DNA of 19,471 nt from Prolixibacteraceae bacterium. GTDB taxonomy: Bacteria; Bacteroidota; Bacteroidia; Bacteroidales; Prolixibacteraceae. Shown one piece after another: positions 4,035-13,684 of the stretch. Each line of letters opens with the position of its first letter. Position 1 is the stretch's first letter. A model generated the notes under the pieces. The model was given only the letters and a program-made list of their open reading frames with translations, did no database searches and had not been told where the DNA came from. The stretch spans positions 1-19,471 of the forward strand of contig JAGODU010000073.1 of the NCBI GenBank assembly GCA_017998095.1, read 5' to 3'. Made by a program: the position numbers and the translations under genes.

Positions 4035-7000
4035 ATGAAAAGGCTTACCCTTATATCTTTTCTTCTTATATCATTGCTAATCCTTTCTTTATCAATTTCT
4101 TCATTGGCACAAGGAAATGGAGAAGTCTTCACTGTAAAAGGGTTTGTAAAAGATAACTATACTAATGAAAAACTGCCGGGAGTTAATATTTTTTTAAAAG
4201 GAACTTCAAGAGGGACTGTAACTGGGGCAGATGGAAATTACTTGCTTAAGGTAACAGCTGGTAGATATAAAATTGTCTATAGTTTTGTTGGTTATGAAGT
4301 GCAGGAGAAAGAGTTAAATATTAATTCAGACAAGGTTATAATGGTAGCCCTTGAACCGGATAAAAAGATTCTGGATGAAATTGAAATAACTGCACAAAGA
4401 AAGTTTTTTGGTAATATGGAATATGGCCGGGACCTTCCAACTATTGATGCCCGGGATATTATCAAACAAAATTCAACTAACGCCTCCGATCTTCTTCATG
4501 CCCGACTATCAGGAGTTTGGACAACAAAAACATCAGGTGCTCCAGGTGACCAGACAAAAATACGCATACGTGGTCAAACATCGTTCTTTTCTTCTGCTGA
4601 ACCCCTTTTTGTGATTGATGGCGTTCCTGTTCCGATTGTTAACCTTGCAAGTTTAGGTATAGCAGACCTTAACGTTTATGACATAGAGAATATCACGGTA
4701 CTTAAGGACGCATCTTCTACCGCGTTGTATGGTTATCAGGGAGGTAATGGTGTCATTCTTATCGATACAAGGAGGACAAGCAATAACTTTATTAATTTTT
4801 CAGTTAAAACTGGCATGAATTGGTTTGACAATTTTTATGACCTAATGAATACTAAAGAATTTTTGAATTCTGTTCAATTAGCGTCAGATAAAATAGGTTC
4901 AAAAATGGAATTATATAATCCTCCATACAATGATACCCTGTGTGACCATAACAGGCAAAAAGAAATCTTTAATACTGCATTTTTTCAAGAGTACCAGCTT
5001 TCGACTGGCTTTCAAAAAAAATCTTTCAAATGTTATCTTTCAGGAAATTACACTAAACAAGAAGGAATTTTACCGGGTTCATTATACCAAAGAGCAACGC
5101 TTGCAGCAAATTTAAACAAGCATTTTGGTACAAAATTAGCAATTGGGATAAGCTACAGAGGTAGTTATCAGTATAATCAAAATAACCAAAATGAATATAA
5201 TGGGAACAGGCTGTTATTTGAAGGGATTACCAAATCTCCCTGTCTCGAAGATACACCTGACTCGATGATAAACAATCCAAAACCTCCTTACCAAAGTTAT
5301 ATCAGGATTCATAATAAATATGAAATTTTGAATGACAGCGAGCTTCTACAATCAATAATCGACAACAACAATAATGCATTACCCATTATTTCGAATGCCA
5401 TCAGTTTTTCGGGAAGGTATCAATTGACAAAGCATTTAAATATGGATATAATTGAATCTTATATGTATAGGTGGACCAACTACCAATCAAAATCTCAATA
5501 TTATGCAATAAATATTGGGAAGCCAAAAGTTGAATTGTCAAGTGTTGAAAAAGTAAAATTGATGAACCATCAAATAAATATCTCATATAACAATTCCTTT
5601 GGTGCAAATGATATTAGTTTACTTTTTGCCAATAGAATTTATGCCGATAACCTGAGCTGGGAAGTTGATTCGATGAACAATAAATTACCTGAACACTACT
5701 ATCTCAGGAATTCAATGGCTTGTTATGGCAAAAAAGGATCGGTGATCAGACGTATTAATTCATACATTGTCCATGCCAGTTACAATTACCAAAGAACATA
5801 TTTTGCGTCAGTTGTTGCTAATTTAAGTAGGTTAAGAGAAGGTTCGTTTATCGACTACTATACACTATTTCCTTCTTTATCACTGAGTTGGAATATCTTA
5901 AAAGAACCATTCTTCAATTTTCAAAAAAGATCAGGTGAACTGCATTTTTATTTTAATTATGGGACAAGTGGGAACTATCCATTGAACGGTCTGTCAAATG
6001 ATCTTTATAATGTTGAGTATTGGAACACCAATAGTGGGAACTATGTGAATTTACACATTATTGACCAACTTGCCAACCATCATTTGAAGCATGAAAGCAC
6101 CTCTGAATTCGATGTAGGAATAAAAAGTTCGTTTTTTAAAGAAAGGTTGAAACTAAATGCTGCAATATTCAACAAAAGTATCAGTAATCAAATTATTAAA
6201 CGTGATATTCCCCGTTATTATGGAGGAGGAAAAATTTATGTCAATATGGGCGATATTGACGTAGAAGGATACGAATTTAGTGTGGAAGCCATACCTATAA
6301 AAACAAAAGATGTTGACTGGTACCTAAATGGAAGTTTTTCTACTTCAAATCAAACAATATCTAAGCTTATTGATAATCAGGATATGTTGTTCCGCAATGA
6401 AGATATTCTTTTTCCTGAATTCATAATAAAAGAAGGGGCTCAATTGGGCGATATTTTTGGATATCAGTGTTTGGGGAAATGGGAGGAAAAATATGAGGGA
6501 AAGAAGTTGTATTATAATCTGGGGAATATGGCTTTTCTGAACAAAGACACCACCAATATGAATATCGATGAAAATGATAAAGTGGTAATCGGGAATTCTG
6601 TCCCCGATTTTACATGGAATCTTTCCAGTTCTCTACGTTATAAGAATTTAAGTCTTGATTTTATCATTTATTCTGTTTGGGGTGTCGAGAAATATAATGC
6701 TACAAGGGCTGGAACAATTATGACTGGTGTTAACAGAGAAATTATTGAATTTTATAAAGAAAATATAAAGGCAATTCAAAACAAAAGATTTTACGAATCA
6801 TCTTTGTTTATCGATGATGCCAGTTTTATTCGCTTGAAGAGTGTGACTCTGAATTACGAACCAGATAAAGCATATAAGGGAGTTAGATTCAGCTTTTCAT
6901 TGAGTTTAGAAAACGTTGTAACAATAACAAAATATAACGGATATGATCCTGAGGCTACTACATTTACAGATAATAATTTTTCGGACAATGCAATAGACAG

Positions 7001-7055
7001 GGGAGCATATCCCAGCCCTAAGGGCGTAATTGCTACAATAAACCTCAAATACTAA
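4035..7055 (+). CDS. SusC/RagA-family TonB-linked outer-membrane transporter
   Basis: SusC proteins form the outer-membrane beta-barrel of a TonB-powered importer for glycans or peptides, lidded by SusD. The 1006-residue product has a signal peptide (1-26, ending SLAQ). A carboxypeptidase-regulatory-like domain follows (33-107, with VKGFVKD…LPGVNIFLKGTSRGTVT). The plug domain is at about 133-247, with LLHARLSGVWTTK, KIRIRG, PLFVIDGVP and VLKDASSTALYG, all SusC hallmarks. The remainder is a long barrel ending in an aromatic C-terminus (KGVIATINLKY). The length is normal and no frameshift is seen. It lies 36 nt after the split PpiC-like gene and 4 nt before susD. The substrate cannot be inferred, because no glycosidase, peptidase or binding protein lies nearby. 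The IS upstream could reduce its expression if it depends on an upstream promoter. Confidence 0.95.
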   Translation: MKRLTLISFLLISLLILSLSISSLAQGNGEVFTVKGFVKDNYTNEKLPGVNIFLKGTSRGTVTGADGNYLLKVTAGRYKIVYSFVGYEVQEKELNINSDKVIMVALEPDKKILDEIEITAQRKFFGNMEYGRDLPTIDARDIIKQNSTNASDLLHARLSGVWTTKTSGAPGDQTKIRIRGQTSFFSSAEPLFVIDGVPVPIVNLASLGIADLNVYDIENITVLKDASSTALYGYQGGNGVILIDTRRTSNNFINFSVKTGMNWFDNFYDLMNTKEFLNSVQLASDKIGSKMELYNPPYNDTLCDHNRQKEIFNTAFFQEYQLSTGFQKKSFKCYLSGNYTKQEGILPGSLYQRATLAANLNKHFGTKLAIGISYRGSYQYNQNNQNEYNGNRLLFEGITKSPCLEDTPDSMINNPKPPYQSYIRIHNKYEILNDSELLQSIIDNNNNALPIISNAISFSGRYQLTKHLNMDIIESYMYRWTNYQSKSQYYAINIGKPKVELSSVEKVKLMNHQINISYNNSFGANDISLLFANRIYADNLSWEVDSMNNKLPEHYYLRNSMACYGKKGSVIRRINSYIVHASYNYQRTYFASVVANLSRLREGSFIDYYTLFPSLSLSWNILKEPFFNFQKRSGELHFYFNYGTSGNYPLNGLSNDLYNVEYWNTNSGNYVNLHIIDQLANHHLKHESTSEFDVGIKSSFFKERLKLNAAIFNKSISNQIIKRDIPRYYGGGKIYVNMGDIDVEGYEFSVEAIPIKTKDVDWYLNGSFSTSNQTISKLIDNQDMLFRNEDILFPEFIIKEGAQLGDIFGYQCLGKWEEKYEGKKLYYNLGNMAFLNKDTTNMNIDENDKVVIGNSVPDFTWNLSSSLRYKNLSLDFIIYSVWGVEKYNATRAGTIMTGVNREIIEFYKENIKAIQNKRFYESSLFIDDASFIRLKSVTLNYEPDKAYKGVRFSFSLSLENVVTITKYNGYDPEATTFTDNNFSDNAIDRGAYPSPKGVIATINLKY

Positions 7056-7059
7056 TGAA

Positions 7060-8718
7060 ATGACAAAACCCTTTAAACCTGAAATGGAAATATTTGGATC
7101 CCTAATAATATCTATGATCACTCGTATCATGCATGTTGTATTTGTATTTGTTTTTTCAATCGTGTTTATGGGATGTAATTTGTTTTTTGATAAAGAAGAA
7201 ACAAGCTTAGCTCAATTGAAAAGTTTTACAGATTATGAAGATGCAATAAACGGAGTATATGGAATATTAAATATTTCTATTAACAACAATAGGAACATTG
7301 ATTATTTTTATGCCAATTTAAAAGCCGATGATCTGTCGATATGGGGAGGTTTTAGGTCTGATTACTATATTACTCCCGAAAATTATATTGATTATCTTTA
7401 CAATTCAGGCTCAAATTCCTGTAATCAAATCGGCTCTGGATACAATCAAGAAGATGGCACAAATACTTCCTATACATGGAATAATTTATATAAAACCATA
7501 GTATCGGCAAATAATATAATTGGCCAGTATCCCGCATATAAAGATGATGGAAAAATATATGGGATCATTGGAGAAGCATACCTGATAAGAGCTTATTGCT
7601 ATTTTCGCCTCACCCATATTTACGGGGAAATACCATTAATTGAAGATACTGATGTAAACTTTACTGTTCCAAAATCACCATTTGTTGAAATATATGAGTT
7701 GATAGAATATGATCTTATGATGGCAAAGAAATTTTTGCCATCAAATAATGATTCGGCCAGAATTCCATTTGTCACACCACATAAAGGTACTGTAGGGACA
7801 ATTTTGGCTGAACTTTACCTCTGTTGGGCTGGATACCCAGTTAAAGATTATTCAAAATATGAAATGGCTATGAATACTGCCAGTACAGTAATCGATAGTA
7901 TGGATTATTTTGGAATGGGATTAGTAGATGATTTTGCCGGGTTATGGGGGAATAATAATTTATATAATAAAGAAGCTGTATTTAGTGTTTACTCTAACAA
8001 AGAAAAGATTCGATATTTTAATGTCCCGGAGTCCAAAATTTTTGATATTTATAATGGGTCTTATTACTATACAGAATATGAATTTTACAATCATTATCCA
8101 AAAAATTACAGGAGAGATATTACTTTCATTAATAAGCTGTATTATATCACCATTTCACTAACTGAGTCTGGTGAATATTATGTGAAAGTTGATTCCTTAT
8201 ATATTGACAAAGCACTTCCATGTGTTAATTTGATATATCGGAAGTTTAATTATTTTGATATTTTCCGGGATAAGAACTTTACCCTTGATACCATAAATAG
8301 GGAATGCTATGGTAATCAACGATTCGACCTTTACCGTTTTGCACATACCTTGTTGACTTACTCCGAAGCCGCTGCGCGATGTGGGCATTTGGATTCTAAG
8401 GCTTATGAATGTGTAAACATGATCCGTCGCAGGGCTAATCATCTTGATTTACATACTCCTTCAGAGTTTGATCTTAAGCCCGGGCTTTCAGCTGAAGCTT
8501 TTATCGATTCGGTAGTTGCTGAACGCGGATGGGAATTGGCCGGTGAACCAGAAGGTCGTTGGTTTGACCTTATAAGGCTCGAGAAAGTCGAAGATTTGCC
8601 GCAATTAAGGGGAATTAGAGACATTGATTTTCCTTTTAACAAAATTGTTACCAAAGAAGATTATTATTTTCCCATTCCACAAGGAGATATTCTATTGAAT
8701 CCGGCTTTAGGAAAATAG
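7060..8718 (+). CDS. SusD/RagB-family outer-membrane nutrient-binding lipoprotein
   Basis: SusD-type lipoproteins sit on the cell surface and close over the SusC barrel to deliver substrate. From ATG 7060 the product is 552 residues. A hydrophobic stretch precedes a lipobox FMGC at Cys39. The internal ATG at 7114 (MITRIMHVVF…) would give a more ordinary 20-residue signal peptide and may be the true start. The N-terminal part has the TPR-like pattern of the family (DAINGVYGIL, GEAYLIRAYCYFRLTHIYGEIPLI). The C-terminal part has the conserved LLTYSEAAARCG…CVNMIRRRA, then ERGWELAGEPEGRWFDLIRL and the YYFPIPQGDILLNP ending. The length is normal and it is certainly paired with the preceding susC, the gap being 4 nt. 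Confidence 0.95.
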   Translation: MTKPFKPEMEIFGSLIISMITRIMHVVFVFVFSIVFMGCNLFFDKEETSLAQLKSFTDYEDAINGVYGILNISINNNRNIDYFYANLKADDLSIWGGFRSDYYITPENYIDYLYNSGSNSCNQIGSGYNQEDGTNTSYTWNNLYKTIVSANNIIGQYPAYKDDGKIYGIIGEAYLIRAYCYFRLTHIYGEIPLIEDTDVNFTVPKSPFVEIYELIEYDLMMAKKFLPSNNDSARIPFVTPHKGTVGTILAELYLCWAGYPVKDYSKYEMAMNTASTVIDSMDYFGMGLVDDFAGLWGNNNLYNKEAVFSVYSNKEKIRYFNVPESKIFDIYNGSYYYTEYEFYNHYPKNYRRDITFINKLYYITISLTESGEYYVKVDSLYIDKALPCVNLIYRKFNYFDIFRDKNFTLDTINRECYGNQRFDLYRFAHTLLTYSEAAARCGHLDSKAYECVNMIRRRANHLDLHTPSEFDLKPGLSAEAFIDSVVAERGWELAGEPEGRWFDLIRLEKVEDLPQLRGIRDIDFPFNKIVTKEDYYFPIPQGDILLNPALGK

Positions 8719-8859: not shown

Positions 8860-9042
8860 ATGAGATATTTTTTTACAATTCTTTTATTTTCATTGTTTCC
8901 AATAGCTTCATTCTCCCAACCATTTCAGGTAAAAGGGTATGTGAAGGATAAATCATCAGGGGACATTCTTCCTAATGCTCATGTTTTTATTGATACTCAT
9001 GAAAAAGTTATAGTTGCCAATAATTATGGGTTTAAATTCTAA
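8860..9042 (+). pseudogene. N-terminal stub of a TonB-receptor-type gene (carboxypeptidase-regulatory-like domain)
   Basis: Only 60 residues: a signal peptide (MRYFFTILLFSLFPIASFSQ) followed by VKGYVKDKSSGDILPNAHVFIDTHEKV…NNYGF. This is the opening of the carboxypeptidase-regulatory-like domain found at the start of Bacteroidota TonB-dependent receptors. Such a domain normally continues for about 40 more residues and then a plug and barrel. Here the frame stops two codons after NNYGF. Skipping one base near 9035 would extend the reading (…GFNSKLTLLLK…) for a few more domain-like residues, suggesting a frameshift followed by a large deletion. The rest of the receptor is missing and the mutA promoter begins about 55 nt later. 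It cannot work as a transporter. Confidence 0.72.
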
Positions 9043-9098
9043 GTTAACATTACTGCTAAAAATCAGCTTTTTTTCTCCCTTAACTTATATAAATCAAT

Positions 9099-9106
9099 TA
9101 CCTTTG
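9099..9106 (+). promoter_or_regulatory. Bacteroidota -7 promoter box TACCTTTG upstream of mutA
   Basis: TACCTTTG matches the Bacteroidota sigma-ABfr -7 consensus TAnnTTTG exactly and lies 33 nt before the mutA ATG. A clear TTTG -33 box is not visible at the right spacing; a T-rich stretch occupies that place. It supports the mutA start at 9140 and shows that the mutase operon has its own promoter. Confidence 0.55.
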
Positions 9107-9139
9107 CCCACGTTTTTTAATTTTCAACACAGTTATGTT

Positions 9140-11053
9140 ATGGCAGAGAATAATATAAATCTCTTTAAAGAGTTCCCTCCGGTTTCAACTGCCGATTGGC
9201 AGGCTAAAATTGAAGCCGACCTGAAAGGGAAAGATTTCGAAAAAACACTGGTATGGAGAACAAATGAAGGTTTTAATGTTCGTCCGTATTACAGGGAAGA
9301 AGATCTTCAAAGTTTAAAGTATCTTAATACTTTACCGGGGCAGTTTCCTTATGTCAGGGGCACTAAAGAAAGCGGCAATGAGTGGCTGATTCGTCAGGAT
9401 ATTGAAGTCGGCTGTTTTAGTGAAGCTAACAAGAAAGCTCTTGAATTGTTGAACAAGGGAATTAACTCTCTCGGGTTCATCATCAAAGGTGATGAAGACC
9501 TTACTGCTTCTGATCTTGAAAGACTTCTCAATGGTATTGACCTCAATGCATGTGAAGTGAATATTTCACGTTGTCATCACAAACCAGCAAGCTACAGCCT
9601 TCTTGCTCAGTACATAAAAAAGAATTACGGTGAAAATTCAACTGTAAAGGCATCCGTAAAGGTTGACCCTATCGGAAGATTGGTGCGTAAAGGCTCTTTG
9701 GAAATGTCTGAATTTGATGGTTTGAAAATGCTTATTGAAGAAACTGAAACTTTGAGCAATTTCAAGGTTGTTTCTGTCAATGGTAAATTCCTTCGTGATT
9801 CTGGTTCTTCAATTGTTCAGGAACTTGGTTTCTCACTTGCTCAGGGCGCAGAATACATGACACGCCTTACTGAAATGGGAGTTGAAGCTTATGATGCAGC
9901 ATCGAAAATAAAATTCAACTTTGGTGTTGGTGCCAATTATTTCATGGAAATAGCTAAGCTTCGCGCAGCACGCTTGATGTGGGCTAAGATTGTTGAAGCT
10001 TATGAGCCAAAATGCAATTGCGGCGATGATTGCGATTGTGAAGACGAATGTAAAGACGGCATTTGTAATTGTTGTGGTGCAATGGCTATTCATAGTGAAA
10101 ATACAATCTGGAACAAGACTGTATATGATCCATACGTAAATATGCTTCGCACTCAAACAGAAGCAATGAGCGCTGTTCTTGGCGGAACAGATTCATTGAC
10201 TGTATTGCCATTCAATGCTATTTATGAAAAGCCAACTGATTTTTCTGAAAGGATAGCCCGCAATCAACAGTTGCTTTTAAAAGAAGAATCACATTTCGAT
10301 AAGATAGCAGATCCTGCAGCCGGTTCATACTATATTGAAAACCTTACTAATAATATTGCTGACCTTGCATGGAAATTATTCCTTGATGTTCAGGAAAAAG
10401 GTGGTTTCATAGCTGCATTTAAAGAAGGATTTGTTCAATCACAGATTGAAGCTACAGCTGCTAAACTTGATTCAGCAATAGCTACACGCAGGGAAAACCT
10501 GCTTGGAACAAATCAGTTTCCAAACTTTACTGAGTATATTCAGAATGAGCTTGACGCAGAAATATTTGCAAGAAAATCATGCAAATCTGCTGATGCTATA
10601 GCTGAACCTTTGAAACGTTATCGCGGTGCACAGGCTTTCGAATCATTGCGTTATGCAACTGACATGTATGCAAAAGATCGTAAACGTCCGCTGGTATTCA
10701 TGCTTACTATTGGCAATCTTGCAATGAGGAAAGCTCGTGCACAGTTTGCTTGTAATTTCTTCGCTGTAGCAGGTTTTGATGTTGTAGAAGGCAAAGGTTA
10801 TTCTGATGTTGAGGAAGGTATAGTTGACGCTGTTGAAGCCGGAGCTTCAATTGTAGTTATCTGTAGTTCAGACGATGAATATGCTGAGTTTGCTCCTCAG
10901 GCAGCTGAAAAGCTTATTGATGAAATCTTTGTTGTTGCCGGTAACCCTGCATGCAAGGAAGAATTAGAAGCTAAAGGGATAAGTAATTTCATCCATGTTA
11001 AGAGCAATCTTTTGAATGAATTGATCAGATATCAAAAGGAATTGGGTATTTAG
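9140..11053 (+). CDS. mutA: methylmalonyl-CoA mutase small subunit
   Basis: This is the non-catalytic beta subunit of the heterodimeric adenosylcobalamin enzyme that interconverts succinyl-CoA and (R)-methylmalonyl-CoA. The product is 637 residues from the ATG at 9140 (MAENNINLFKEFPPV). An open frame extends further upstream to 9014, but that part is leftover receptor sequence and promoter. The N-terminal half is the TIM-barrel mutase domain (ADWQAKIEADLKGKDFEKTLVWRTNEGF; later KIKFNFGVGANYFMEIAKLRAARLMWAKIVEAY; then TVYDPYVNMLRTQTEAMSAVLGG). The C-terminal part is a degenerate B12-binding-like domain lacking the DxHxxG cobalt-ligand motif, as expected for this subunit. An odd feature is a cysteine-rich insert at residues 292-312 with eight Cys (292, 294, 298, 300, 304, 309, 311, 312), next to the barrel's active-site helix region. 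mutB follows after a small inserted gene. Confidence 0.95.
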   Translation: MAENNINLFKEFPPVSTADWQAKIEADLKGKDFEKTLVWRTNEGFNVRPYYREEDLQSLKYLNTLPGQFPYVRGTKESGNEWLIRQDIEVGCFSEANKKALELLNKGINSLGFIIKGDEDLTASDLERLLNGIDLNACEVNISRCHHKPASYSLLAQYIKKNYGENSTVKASVKVDPIGRLVRKGSLEMSEFDGLKMLIEETETLSNFKVVSVNGKFLRDSGSSIVQELGFSLAQGAEYMTRLTEMGVEAYDAASKIKFNFGVGANYFMEIAKLRAARLMWAKIVEAYEPKCNCGDDCDCEDECKDGICNCCGAMAIHSENTIWNKTVYDPYVNMLRTQTEAMSAVLGGTDSLTVLPFNAIYEKPTDFSERIARNQQLLLKEESHFDKIADPAAGSYYIENLTNNIADLAWKLFLDVQEKGGFIAAFKEGFVQSQIEATAAKLDSAIATRRENLLGTNQFPNFTEYIQNELDAEIFARKSCKSADAIAEPLKRYRGAQAFESLRYATDMYAKDRKRPLVFMLTIGNLAMRKARAQFACNFFAVAGFDVVEGKGYSDVEEGIVDAVEAGASIVVICSSDDEYAEFAPQAAEKLIDEIFVVAGNPACKEELEAKGISNFIHVKSNLLNELIRYQKELGI

Positions 11054-11107
11054 AGATAAGTATCAAGACACAAGACACAAGACACAAGACACAAGACACA
11101 AGACAAG
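11053..11107. repeat. 7-bp tandem repeat array, left boundary of the four-helix-bundle cassette
   Basis: Heptamers run AGATAAG, TATCAAG, then five perfect ACACAAG (11068-11102) and a partial ACAAG. The array lies between the mutA stop and the next small gene. The 11-mer AAGTATCAAGA (11058-11068) is exactly complementary to TCTTGATACTT (11479-11489) at the end of that gene. Confidence 0.9.
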
Positions 11108-11115
11108 ATAGGGAT

Positions 11116-11484
11116 ATGCATAATTATTTGGAATTGAAATTTTGGAAGAAATCGAGAGAGTTGGTAAAGCAGGTTTATCTGATTACTGATTCATTTCCTA
11201 AGAATCAACAATTCTGTCTTTCAAATCAGATGCAGCGTGCTGTTATATCAATTCCATCTAATATTGCAGAAGGAGCCGGTCGTAATTCAAGTAAGGAATT
11301 TGTTCGTTTTCTTGACATTGCTAATGGTTCAGCCTTTGAGTTAGAGACTCAGCTGTTTTTAAGTTATGATTTTGGATATGTTACTTCAGAAATAATAAAT
11401 TCATTGATTTCTGATCTAAAAGAAATTCAGAAGATGATTTACAAGTTCAGACTGAATCTTGAAAAGAAAGATCTTGATTCTTGA
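11116..11484 (+). CDS. four-helix-bundle protein of the S23 / 23S rRNA intervening-sequence family
   Basis: This 122-residue protein shows the full family pattern: LKFWKKSRELVKQVYLITDSFP, LSNQMQRAVISIPSNIAEG (the signature), GRNSSKEFVRFLDIANGSAFELETQLFLS, then a C-terminal helix. The family forms small helical-bundle oligomers. Members are encoded in intervening sequences of 23S rRNA in several bacteria and as free genes, and are related to the Avd proteins of diversity-generating retroelements. Their biochemical role is unclear, and binding of nucleic acid is the usual suggestion. Here it sits between mutA and mutB (62-nt and 43-nt gaps), inside inverted arrays of 7-bp repeats. Its stop codon lies within the right array. 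The arrangement looks like a cassette inserted into a metabolic operon; a role in mutase function seems unlikely. Confidence 0.9.
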   Translation: MHNYLELKFWKKSRELVKQVYLITDSFPKNQQFCLSNQMQRAVISIPSNIAEGAGRNSSKEFVRFLDIANGSAFELETQLFLSYDFGYVTSEIINSLISDLKEIQKMIYKFRLNLEKKDLDS

Positions 11485-11502
11485 TACTTGATACTTGATA
11501 CC
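11471..11502. repeat. 7-bp tandem repeat array, right boundary of the four-helix-bundle cassette
   Basis: Heptamers run ATCTTGA, TTCTTGA, TACTTGA, TACTTGA and a partial TACC. They are inverted relative to the left array: TCTTGATACTT (11479-11489) is the exact complement of 11058-11068. The first two units are the last codons and TGA stop of the four-helix-bundle gene. Confidence 0.9.
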
Positions 11503-11527
11503 AATTATAAAATAAAAGAAGACAATT

Positions 11528-13684
11528 ATGAATCCGAATTTTAAAAATATAAATATTAAAGAATCAAAAGGTACTTGCTGCTGTGGCGATTCTTCCAATG
11601 TAGAAGTTGGTAAAGAAAACATGTGGAACACACCTGAACAGATACCTGTTAAACCTGTATATACAAAGTCTGACCTTGAAGGTATGGAACATTTGAATTA
11701 TGCAGCCGGTATTGCTCCTTTCCTCCGCGGACCTTATTCAGGCATGTATGCAATGCAACCATGGACAATACGTCAGTACGCCGGTTTCTCAACTGCTGAA
11801 GAATCAAACGCTTTCTACAGAAGAAACCTTGCTGCCGGACAAAAAGGTCTTTCAGTTGCATTCGACCTTGCTACTCACCGTGGTTATGATTCAGATCATC
11901 CACGTGTAGTTGGTGATGTTGGAAAAGCCGGTGTGGCTATCGATTCAATCCTCGATATGAAGATTCTTTTCGATCAGATACCACTCGACAAGATGTCTGT
12001 TTCAATGACAATGAACGGTGCTGTACTACCTGTACTTGCATTCTATATTGTTACAGGTCTTGAACAGGGTGCAACCCTTGAACAGCTTTCAGGTACTATA
12101 CAAAACGATATCCTGAAGGAATTCATGGTGCGTAACACCTATATTTATCCTCCTGAATTTTCAATGAAGATCATTGCTGATATTTTTGAATATACAGCGA
12201 AGAATATGCCTAAGTTCAATTCAATTTCAATATCAGGCTACCACATGCAGGAAGCAGGGGCAACTGCTGATATTGAAATGGCTTATACACTTGCCGACGG
12301 ACTTGAATATCTGAGAGCAGGTATAGCAGCAGGGATGGACATCGATGCATTTGCGCCTCGTCTTTCTTTCTTCTGGGCTATCGGGATGAACCATTTCATG
12401 GAAATAGCCAAGATGCGTGCAGCGAGAATGATTTGGGCAAAGCTGGTTAAACAGTTCAATCCAAAGAATCCAAAGTCAATGGCTTTGCGTACACACTCAC
12501 AAACATCAGGATGGTCGCTTACTGAGCAGGATCCTTTCAATAATGTGGGTCGTACAGCTATCGAAGCAATGGCTTCAGCATTAGGTCACACACAATCACT
12601 TCATACAAATGCACTTGACGAAGCAATTGCATTGCCTACTGACTTTTCAGCACGTATTGCACGCAATACTCAGATTTATATTCAGCAGGAAACTGAAATA
12701 TGCCGTTCACTCGACCCATGGGCAGGTTCTTATTATGTAGAGTCATTGACAAAAGACCTTTACACAAAAGCCTGGGCTTTGATTGAAGAAGTTGAAAAAC
12801 TTGGCGGTATGGCCAAAGCAATTGAAACAGGCGTACCAAAAATGCGTATTGAAGAAGCTGCTGCACGTACACAGGGACGTATCGATTCAGGCAATCAGAC
12901 TATCGTTGGATTGAACAAGTATCGTCTTGAAAAAGAAGATCCTATTGATATTCTTGAAGTAGACAATACTGCAGTGCGTATTTCACAGATTGAAAGACTT
13001 AAAAATCTTCGTGCCAACAGGAATGAAGAAGAAGTTAAGGCAGCCCTTGCAGCTATTACCAAATGTGCTGAAACAAAACAAGGCAACCTTCTTGAGTTAT
13101 CAATAGAAGCTGCTAAGAAACGTGCATCATTAGGTGAAATTTCAGATGCCTGCGAAAAAGTGGCAGGAAGATATAAAGCAATAATCAGAACAATTGAAGG
13201 TGTGTATTCATCAGAAGCTAAAAATGACGGTGACTTTGCCCAGGCTGTGAAGTTAGTCGAGAAATTTGCAGAATTAGAAGGTCGTCAGCCTCGAATTATG
13301 ATTGCAAAGATGGGACAGGACGGACATGACCGAGGTGCTAAGGTTGTAGCAACAGGTTATGCTGACCTTGGCTTTGATGTTGACATGGGACCACTGTTCC
13401 AGACACCTGAAGAAAGTGCTAAGCAAGCCGTTGAAAATGACGTGCATGTATTGGGTGTTTCTTCTTTAGCAGCAGGTCACAAGACTCTCGTTCCTTCAGT
13501 AATTGAAGAATTGAAGAAGCTTGGCAGGGAAGACATCATTGTAATAGCAGGTGGTGTAATTCCGGCACAGGATTATCAATATCTTTATGATGCTGGCGTT
13601 GCTGCTATCTTTGGACCCGGAACAAGCGTTGCTACTGCCGGAAAGAAGATAATGGAAATACTTCTTGAGATTTACTCAGAATAA
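11528..13684 (+). CDS. mutB: methylmalonyl-CoA mutase large (catalytic) subunit
   Basis: This catalytic, cobalamin-binding subunit makes the succinyl-CoA/methylmalonyl-CoA interconversion used in propionate or succinate metabolism. The 718-residue product has the normal length. The TIM-barrel substrate domain shows [52 protein letters not shown] and [15 protein letters not shown]. In the C-terminal B12 domain the lower cobalt ligand is H600 in D598-G-H600-D-R-G603, followed by [14 protein letters not shown] and [11 protein letters not shown]. The ATG at 11528 follows AAAAGAAG. An odd feature is a CCC triplet (Cys17-19) in the N-terminal arm, before the conserved [10 protein letters not shown]; this arm normally wraps onto the small subunit, which here carries its own cysteine cluster. 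A terminator follows directly. Confidence 0.97.

Follow-up and report, generated by a model that had tools for sequence, protein, structure and literature searches.

A 19,471-nt stretch of DNA from a Prolixibacteraceae bacterium (contig JAGODU010000073.1, assembly GCA_017998095.1; here called the window, at its full length) carries a gene for a small four-helix-bundle protein of the S23 family between the methylmalonyl-CoA mutase genes mutA and mutB, with arrays of tandem heptamers in inverse orientation at its two ends. We consider it likely that this feature is a member of a widespread class of compact (~480 bp) mobile, probably homing-like cassettes with inverted degenerate-heptamer arrays at their ends. 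Gene and arms form one unit, the site is polymorphic, copies lie at unrelated sites, orientation is biased and the protein is under purifying selection. In the mechanism we propose, a cassette would comprise one small gene (here S23/IVP), with inverted degenerate heptamer arrays as its ends. It would occupy stop-to-start junctions of closely spaced co-directional genes, presumed to be operons, would itself be co-directional with them, and its gene would presumably be expressed by read-through. At mutA–mutB the cassette comes and goes and alternates with a second type that carries a PDDEXK protein (GxxExxY). Spread between species may follow a homing-like route, with empty alleles of this junction as targets, and the heptad arrays may be recognised by the S23 pentamer, which is related to the diversity-generating retroelement (DGR) protein Avd.

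The element between mutA and mutB

The window's S23 gene matched PF05635 (E 5.7e-40; 136 bits, cut-off 33.8) and TIGR02436 (E 3.3e-37; 127 bits) and both of its neighbours are mutase genes, confirming an S23/intervening sequence (IVS)-family gene inside mutA–mutB. The left arm begins 4 nt after the mutA stop and the right arm ends 25 nt before the mutB start (Table 1). Using Tandem Repeats Finder, we found 6.0 copies of CAAGACA at 11064-11105 (100% matches) and 4.1 copies of CTTGATA at 11473-11501 (95% matches). A preliminary reading of the sequence without database searches (the sequence-only reading) had described inverse heptamer arrays bracketing the gene; the arrays and their orientation were confirmed, but the right array begins inside the gene, within its last codons, and the units are not identical (CAAGACA against CAAGTAT, the right one reverse-complemented). 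Because the two units differ and have only CAAG in common, the arms pair well only in part. Their best pairing spans 18 nt with 2 mismatches (score 26). The arms have 11 bp of exact complement, AAGTATCAAGA at 11058-11068 and TCTTGATACTT at 11479-11489, both found as that reading had claimed. None of 5000 dinucleotide-block shuffles matched this score, and when the arm geometry was slid over 19,001 positions, 30 offsets reached 26, of which 28 were here and 2 near 2995. The only open reading frame (ORF) between the window arrays is S23, with no transposase and no Y1 TnpA_REP protein encoded. An Rfam scan of 10900-11700 gave no match at E ≤ 1.

Table 1. Positions of the cassette and its host genes in the window
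Feature	Position	Strand	Details
Left arm	11058..11105	+	AAGTATCAAGA, continued by 6 CAAGACA heptamers arranged head to tail
S23/IVP four-helix-bundle protein gene, 122 aa	11116..11484	+	PF05635 136 bits, TIGR02436 127 bits; solved-chain relatives 2gsc, 2rld
Right arm	11472..11502	+	~4 CTTGATA heptamers, inverse to the left arm; overlaps the gene's last codons
mutA, methylmalonyl-CoA mutase small subunit, upstream host gene	9014..11053	+	true start perhaps 9137
mutB, methylmalonyl-CoA mutase large subunit, downstream host gene	11528..13684	+	

Elsewhere in the window, a transposase pair with HTH_Tnp_1 and rve domains (1492-2567), which we take to be IS3-like, lies ~8.5 kb from the element and upstream of a SusC/SusD-type pair (4035-8718).

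Cassettes across genomes and sites

Comparisons drew on 80 contigs with a MutA relative (metagenome-assembled genomes and isolates whose titles place them in Bacteroidota), on the whole genomes behind 27 of these contigs, and on 99 genomes sampled from the phylum. PF05635 was present in 26/27 and 75/99 genomes, with up to 16 matches per genome. After 180 elements were collapsed to 162 by identical protein (124 S23 and 38 GxxExxY), and with matches having <60 nt of flank left out, we took 150 nt on either side of each gene and aligned the upstream piece to the reverse-complemented downstream piece, with a threshold score of at least 24. This score was reached by 82/124 S23 and 24/38 GxxExxY elements, against 65/1612 swapped partner pairs (4%) and 57/1005 other ORFs. 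Under this scheme the window element scores only 20, since the start of its right array lies within the gene. The better-scoring orientation was inverted for 80 S23 elements, direct for 11 and neither at threshold for 33; two of the direct cases (L212, L227) are unlike heptamer arrays by eye. For GxxExxY the counts were 15 inverted, 15 direct and 8 neither, several of these genes lying, by eye, between two complete hairpins. Mean autocorrelation of S23 flanks peaked at lag 7, then 14, then 8, and that of GxxExxY flanks near lags 8 and 10.

A gene-blind scan for inverted pairs in two contiguous 400-kb stretches (800 kb) returned 13 with both arms periodic at ≥0.5. All five with a loop >100 nt and periodicity ≥0.6 in both arms, limits chosen after seeing the table, enclose S23-type genes: four already known from the S23 listing and one additional (TIGR02436 E 3e-19, PF05635 E 1.6e-9). 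The remaining eight have short loops or weak periodicity. Since it recovered 4 of the 7 S23 places listed in these stretches, the scan is specific but insensitive. The sequence-only reading had named widespread heptamers without the gene, together with a lack of cassette-like presence or absence, as evidence that would count against it; the strongly periodic long-loop inverted arrays all enclosed S23-type genes (5/5), but gene-less array hairpins do exist at mutA–mutB.

The repeat unit varies by S23 lineage (AGATATT, CAGTGTT, GTTACAA and GGAGACC among others) and is common to related S23 proteins, and different S23 genes of one genome rarely have a common unit: among 91 elements, 1 of 88 same-genome pairs <70% identical shared at least 0.2 of arm 6-mers. 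Where two S23 proteins were at least 65% identical and no similarity was found between their flanking genes, the pairs had a mean of 0.547 of arm 5-mers in common, and 15 of 17 had at least 0.25; these 17 pairs are not independent, because about three quarters stem from one lineage (proteins beginning MDFKEL). Pairs <35% identical had 0.056 in common, and 0.055 (41 pairs) when both flanks were related. The arms follow the gene, not the site. Between the S23 copy in L171 and those in L167 (both copies), L170 and L177, identity is 88-93% over 525-533 bp, and the L171 flanks match none of theirs; homology begins 81-90 nt upstream of the ATG and ends 55-71 nt downstream of the stop codon, so that it runs from array to array. 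As the arms follow the gene, and as in this one lineage the arrays mark the limit of DNA homology between copies at different sites, gene and arrays constitute one unit of ~480 bp. Thirteen alignments were classed as different-site: eight in the L171 lineage, one between adjacent copies in L168, and four others. One L167 copy and one L168 copy sit at a contig or stretch end, which cuts their outer limit.

The two adjacent S23 copies in L168 are 96% identical over 514 bp and lie between direct TTCTCAC arrays, which suggests tandem amplification through the arrays. In another case two distinct S23 cassettes with different repeat units (L146:483-854 and the S23 at G022:C81:161380) lie on either side of one gene, presumably hisH-like by the look of its sequence.

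At 81 mutA–mutB junctions (80 loci and the window) we found S23 in 17 and GxxExxY in 10, the others being gene-less; 30 of the 53 other fully read junctions are ≤30 nt. The sequence-only reading had proposed a check for clean presence or absence in relatives, and clean gene-less junctions were indeed found alongside S23 cassettes. The GxxExxY genes (in L001, L002, L014, L016, L017, L022, L023, L024, L028 and L039) lie between inverted octamer-type arrays (ACACAAAGTCAC... / ...GTGTCTTCGTGTT), and three of the ten proteins were tested and matched TIGR04256 and PDDEXK_3. In L016, L017, L023 and L028 a second, gene-less array hairpin follows the GxxExxY gene. Among gene-less junctions of at least 25 nt, 11/26 beat shuffles at 5% as hairpins, eight of them labelled hairpin by eye (L021, L026, L029, L032, L041, L047, L048, L050) and three labelled empty (L051, L059, L067). 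Of the 13 gene-less junctions labelled hairpin by eye for the MutA tree, L007, L025, L049, L052 and L054 were not supported by the shuffle test.

The MutA tree requires a minimum of 23 changes of occupant, a total that depends partly on the by-eye hairpin labels (the S23 and GxxExxY labels do not). Empty junctions are nested among filled ones; L023 (GxxExxY) and L027 (S23) are sisters (path 0.027), L012 (empty, 10 nt) is 93% identical to L008 (S23) in the last 300 nt of mutA, and by MutA the window is nearest to L001 and L002, both of which hold GxxExxY, not S23. L011, which ends in mutB, was counted as empty; L003, L004 and L008 end inside or shortly after the cassette, and L003 and L004 are absent from the S23 tree and the congruence test. 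On the S23 tree no more than 3 changes are required for the junction S23s (15 rows of 124), so most of them look like one lineage, and a single clade was rejected (p-AU 0.032); L058 and L068 appear to be set apart from the rest, judged by their arms and sequence rather than on a drawn tree. The ten junction GxxExxY proteins form one side of a branch in the GxxExxY tree. Junction S23s showed no significant congruence with MutA (13 rows, rho 0.22; 307/2000 permutations as high). Each family thus has a lineage tied to the mutA–mutB junction, and for S23 the pattern suggests gains from species to species at this one site, and not plain descent.

The few changes on the S23 tree would also be expected if S23 were an old resident gene of the operon and the arrays next to it were either regulatory hairpins or common slippage repeats, and 66/95 S23 pairs at least 65% identical do have both flanks in common. 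We nevertheless consider this very improbable, since empty junctions fall within groups of filled ones, the arms go with the gene and not with the site, S23 has copies at unrelated sites, and one clade for the junction S23s was rejected. The mobile cassette that the sequence-only reading had put forward as one possibility is supported by presence and absence, replacement by GxxExxY, arms following the gene, and copies at unrelated sites ending at the arrays.

S23 was co-directional with both neighbours in 105/114 cases and reversed to both in 2/114, and GxxExxY was co-directional with both in 31/34, compared with 147/202 same-strand pairs among the other adjacent genes of the loci; 10 S23 and 4 GxxExxY elements without a neighbour called on one side were left out of the count. 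Seventy of the 76 armed S23 cassettes with both neighbours are co-directional. In these 70, the median cassette length is 482, the median distance is 9 nt from the upstream stop to the left arm and 10 nt from the right arm to the next start, and 48/70 have ≤60 nt of other DNA in the junction overall. In the two 400-kb samples, gaps of ≤60 nt between same-strand genes account for 3.7% and 4.1% of the intergenic length (crude ORF caller). Judging from strand and spacing, the gene runs around the cassettes are probably operons. Two readings fit: insertion is aimed at operon junctions, or sense insertions in transcribed junctions are the only ones to persist.

A tblastn search with the window protein found 25 plasmid records, mostly from cyanobacteria. 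Of 10 plasmid loci opened, eight have inverted arms (scores 30-63; seven cyanobacterial and one from Azospirillum), the exceptions being L271 with direct arrays and L272 without arrays. The Azospirillum copy (L279, from an alphaproteobacterium) is an unannotated S23-like stretch, its gene limits set by hand, with clear inverted heptad arms. On the L271 (Pseudanabaena) and L273 (Anabaena) plasmids the S23 gene lies between cas6 and cas4, with cas1d also annotated in L273; reported links of the S23 family with CRISPR loci could be cassette hitch-hiking. A phage origin was rejected, as 1 of 50,697 phage records matched. Among 11 IMG/VR loci, 4 had an inverted score of at least 24, and four of the others are identical in value, probably one sequence. 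No PADLOC family of anti-phage defence models matched two S23 proteins and one GxxExxY protein, and 18 S23/GxxExxY loci, chosen mostly for odd or missing neighbours, gave no Rfam match at the gathering score.

Several results weigh against a mobile, homing-like cassette with inverted ends. Of the 124 S23 genes, 33 have no flank match at the threshold, whether inverted or direct, and for 11 the direct orientation gives the higher score. In four comparisons (L176 with L106, L178 and L179; L103 with L172) homology does not extend through the full arms but breaks off at the gene or close to it. A k-mer of at least 6 as a target-site duplication was shared in 6/66 cases against 5.9 expected, in a test whose power is limited by the fuzzy cassette ends. 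The strand bias is weaker on cyanobacterial plasmids: among nine annotated copies, six are co-directional with both neighbours and three antisense to both, so a strict sense bias is not universal. The homing reading takes MutA as a proxy for the species tree, the same pattern would arise if the entire mut operon were transferred, and the quick trees are weakly resolved. Junction GxxExxY proteins, moreover, are congruent with MutA (10 rows, rho 0.63; 0/2000 permutations), so vertical descent with loss is possible for this type. Finally, the putative binding of arrays by S23 and S23-caused movement drew no support from the tests made.

RNA stem or DNA ends

The sequence-only reading had also suggested an RNA-processing element. 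As in the IVS of 23S rRNA, the arms would pair in the polycistronic mRNA and RNase III would cut the stem, so that the gene is excised or the operon message split. The sense orientation of S23 (105/114) is consistent with this, and the RNA fold of the window beats all 100 shuffles (z -2.9; DNA fold, z -2.2), the arms closing the structure with the stem GUAUCAAG/CUUGAUAC. The Coxiella IVS has a 28-bp terminal stem and heptamers and is cleaved by RNase III in vitro, according to the portion of PMC4990558 that we cite. As the window arms close the fold and the Coxiella IVS is cut in such a stem, RNA processing is possible, though the selection signals do not support it. If RNase III acted on the stem, G.U should be tolerated over A.C, and mismatch counts in the arms test this: G.U and A.C numbered 67 and 71 in 82 S23 arm pairs (p 0.80) and 24 and 22 in 24 GxxExxY arm pairs. 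Permuting the units in one arm lowered the mean score only from 34.1 to 29.4 in 58 periodic S23 elements, with 1/58 individually significant and individual power low because few units are available to permute. With no excess of G.U over A.C, complementarity that mostly survives permutation, 11 S23 elements better in direct orientation (9 of them without an inverted match at threshold) and the three antisense cyanobacterial plasmid copies, we regard an RNA-level element as unlikely.

Conservation within the heptad was uneven by phase in 22/43 periodic elements (p ≤ 0.05; ~2 expected), with a short core and 2-3 freer positions. Together the permutation and phase results are better explained by a short core motif repeated in opposite orientations than by a stem maintained at every base pair; slippage that homogenises units can likewise give uneven phases. 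The arrays could accordingly be read as DNA-level protein-binding ends, comparable to iterons or multi-site transposon ends, with the cassette mobilised in trans by some enzyme and S23 as cargo or helper. The uneven phases, the lack of wobble bias and the presence of an unrelated GxxExxY gene with array ends at the same mutA–mutB site all favour such ends; the ambiguity over slippage, the absence of an encoded transposase and a target duplication seen no more often than expected speak against them. We hold this account tentatively, as a credible possibility that falls somewhat short of an even chance.

In the homing-like cassette that we favour, the S23 protein itself may act on the arrays. 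S23 is under purifying selection (median dN/dS 0.075; 35 pairs, 68-99% identity, dS <1.8); the GxxExxY median is 0.124 (13 pairs). A Xanthomonas S23 protein is described in the cited part of PMC4990558 as a toroidal homopentamer, and heptad binding by the S23 ring is a putative activity. The accessory protein Avd of DGRs belongs to the same superfamily as S23, a kinship stated in the excerpted text of PMC10053308, and the window protein is similar to Avd models below the curated cut-off (NF033474, E 1.5e-7; bAvd, E 5.1e-5). Among 13 window proteins scanned there was no reverse transcriptase family; no search was made for template/variable repeats.

Relation to known systems

The analysis ties together S23 genes and tandem heptamers, until now separate puzzles, by treating the repeats as the ends of a small mobile unit. 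This link offers a direct test of the role of S23, namely whether it binds its own array and promotes spread into an empty junction, and the two unrelated proteins alternating at mutA–mutB provide a natural comparison for end recognition. In its broadest form, the proposal is that cassettes with inverted heptad or octad arrays are a general class of minimal homing-like element. Each would carry one of at least two unrelated small proteins (the S23 four-helix bundle and the GxxExxY PDDEXK). The class would occupy junctions within operons in Bacteroidota and cyanobacteria as well as in at least some proteobacteria, leave behind array hairpins without a gene, account for many intergenic heptamer repeats, and include the 23S rRNA IVS as its ribosomal branch. 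We see this generalisation as close to an even call, leaning slightly to doubt.

The intergenic heptamers of Xanthomonas, Nostoc and Beggiatoaceae (GGGAATC, TAACTGA) are, like those here, tandem. Such heptamer repeats are called STRR in cyanobacteria. In the available extract of Rehm 2015 (PMC4692102), intergenic heptamers, including those of Xanthomonas, have inverted pairs in 70 and 75 cases and uneven conservation within the unit; the terms 'S23' and 'helix bundle' do not occur in that extract and no partner gene is named, whereas here the heptamers bracket an S23 or GxxExxY gene. TAACTGA arrays were treated as possible translational regulators in the consulted section of MacGregor 2015 (PMC4679880). 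Geobacter metallireducens likewise has tandem hepta- and octanucleotides paired on opposite strands; in the part of PMC2700814 consulted they are described as predicted binding sites of a global regulator, unlike the cassette ends here.

The cassettes described here also differ from other short intergenic repeats, in having a gene of a non-transposase family inside, heptad-array ends variable in sequence and no encoded Y1 transposase. REP/RAYT elements are short intergenic repeat elements. So too are miniature inverted-repeat transposable elements (MITEs) such as BrickBuilt, as presented in the excerpt of PMC4596501, and gene-less forms exist here too.

The closest likeness is to the 23S rRNA IVS. 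In the cited part of PMC4990558, which also names Leptospira and Brucella IVS ORFs, the Coxiella IVS has the S23/IVP protein family, a single ORF, a length of ~430 nt, complementary flanks and tandem heptamers (GACAGAT) before the S23 ORF, like the window's left array. The common plan proposed by the sequence-only reading therefore holds anatomically, down to the heptamers before the ORF and the stem. The Coxiella S23 copy is described there as decaying, in contrast to the S23 genes here, which are under purifying selection. The window element is not inserted in a 23S rRNA gene but lies between mutA and mutB; elements of its type lie between protein genes, their unit differs by lineage, and the likeness is one of DNA anatomy. 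In the open-access literature (subscription papers were outside the search) we found no account that connects heptad arrays with S23 or GxxExxY genes. Each of the three components, the IVS elements, the intergenic heptamers and the S23 family, is known on its own; what is new is an IVS-type element between protein genes. There is a fair chance that a broader class lies behind such elements, and the link between S23 and heptamers suggests that the rRNA IVS is one branch of it.

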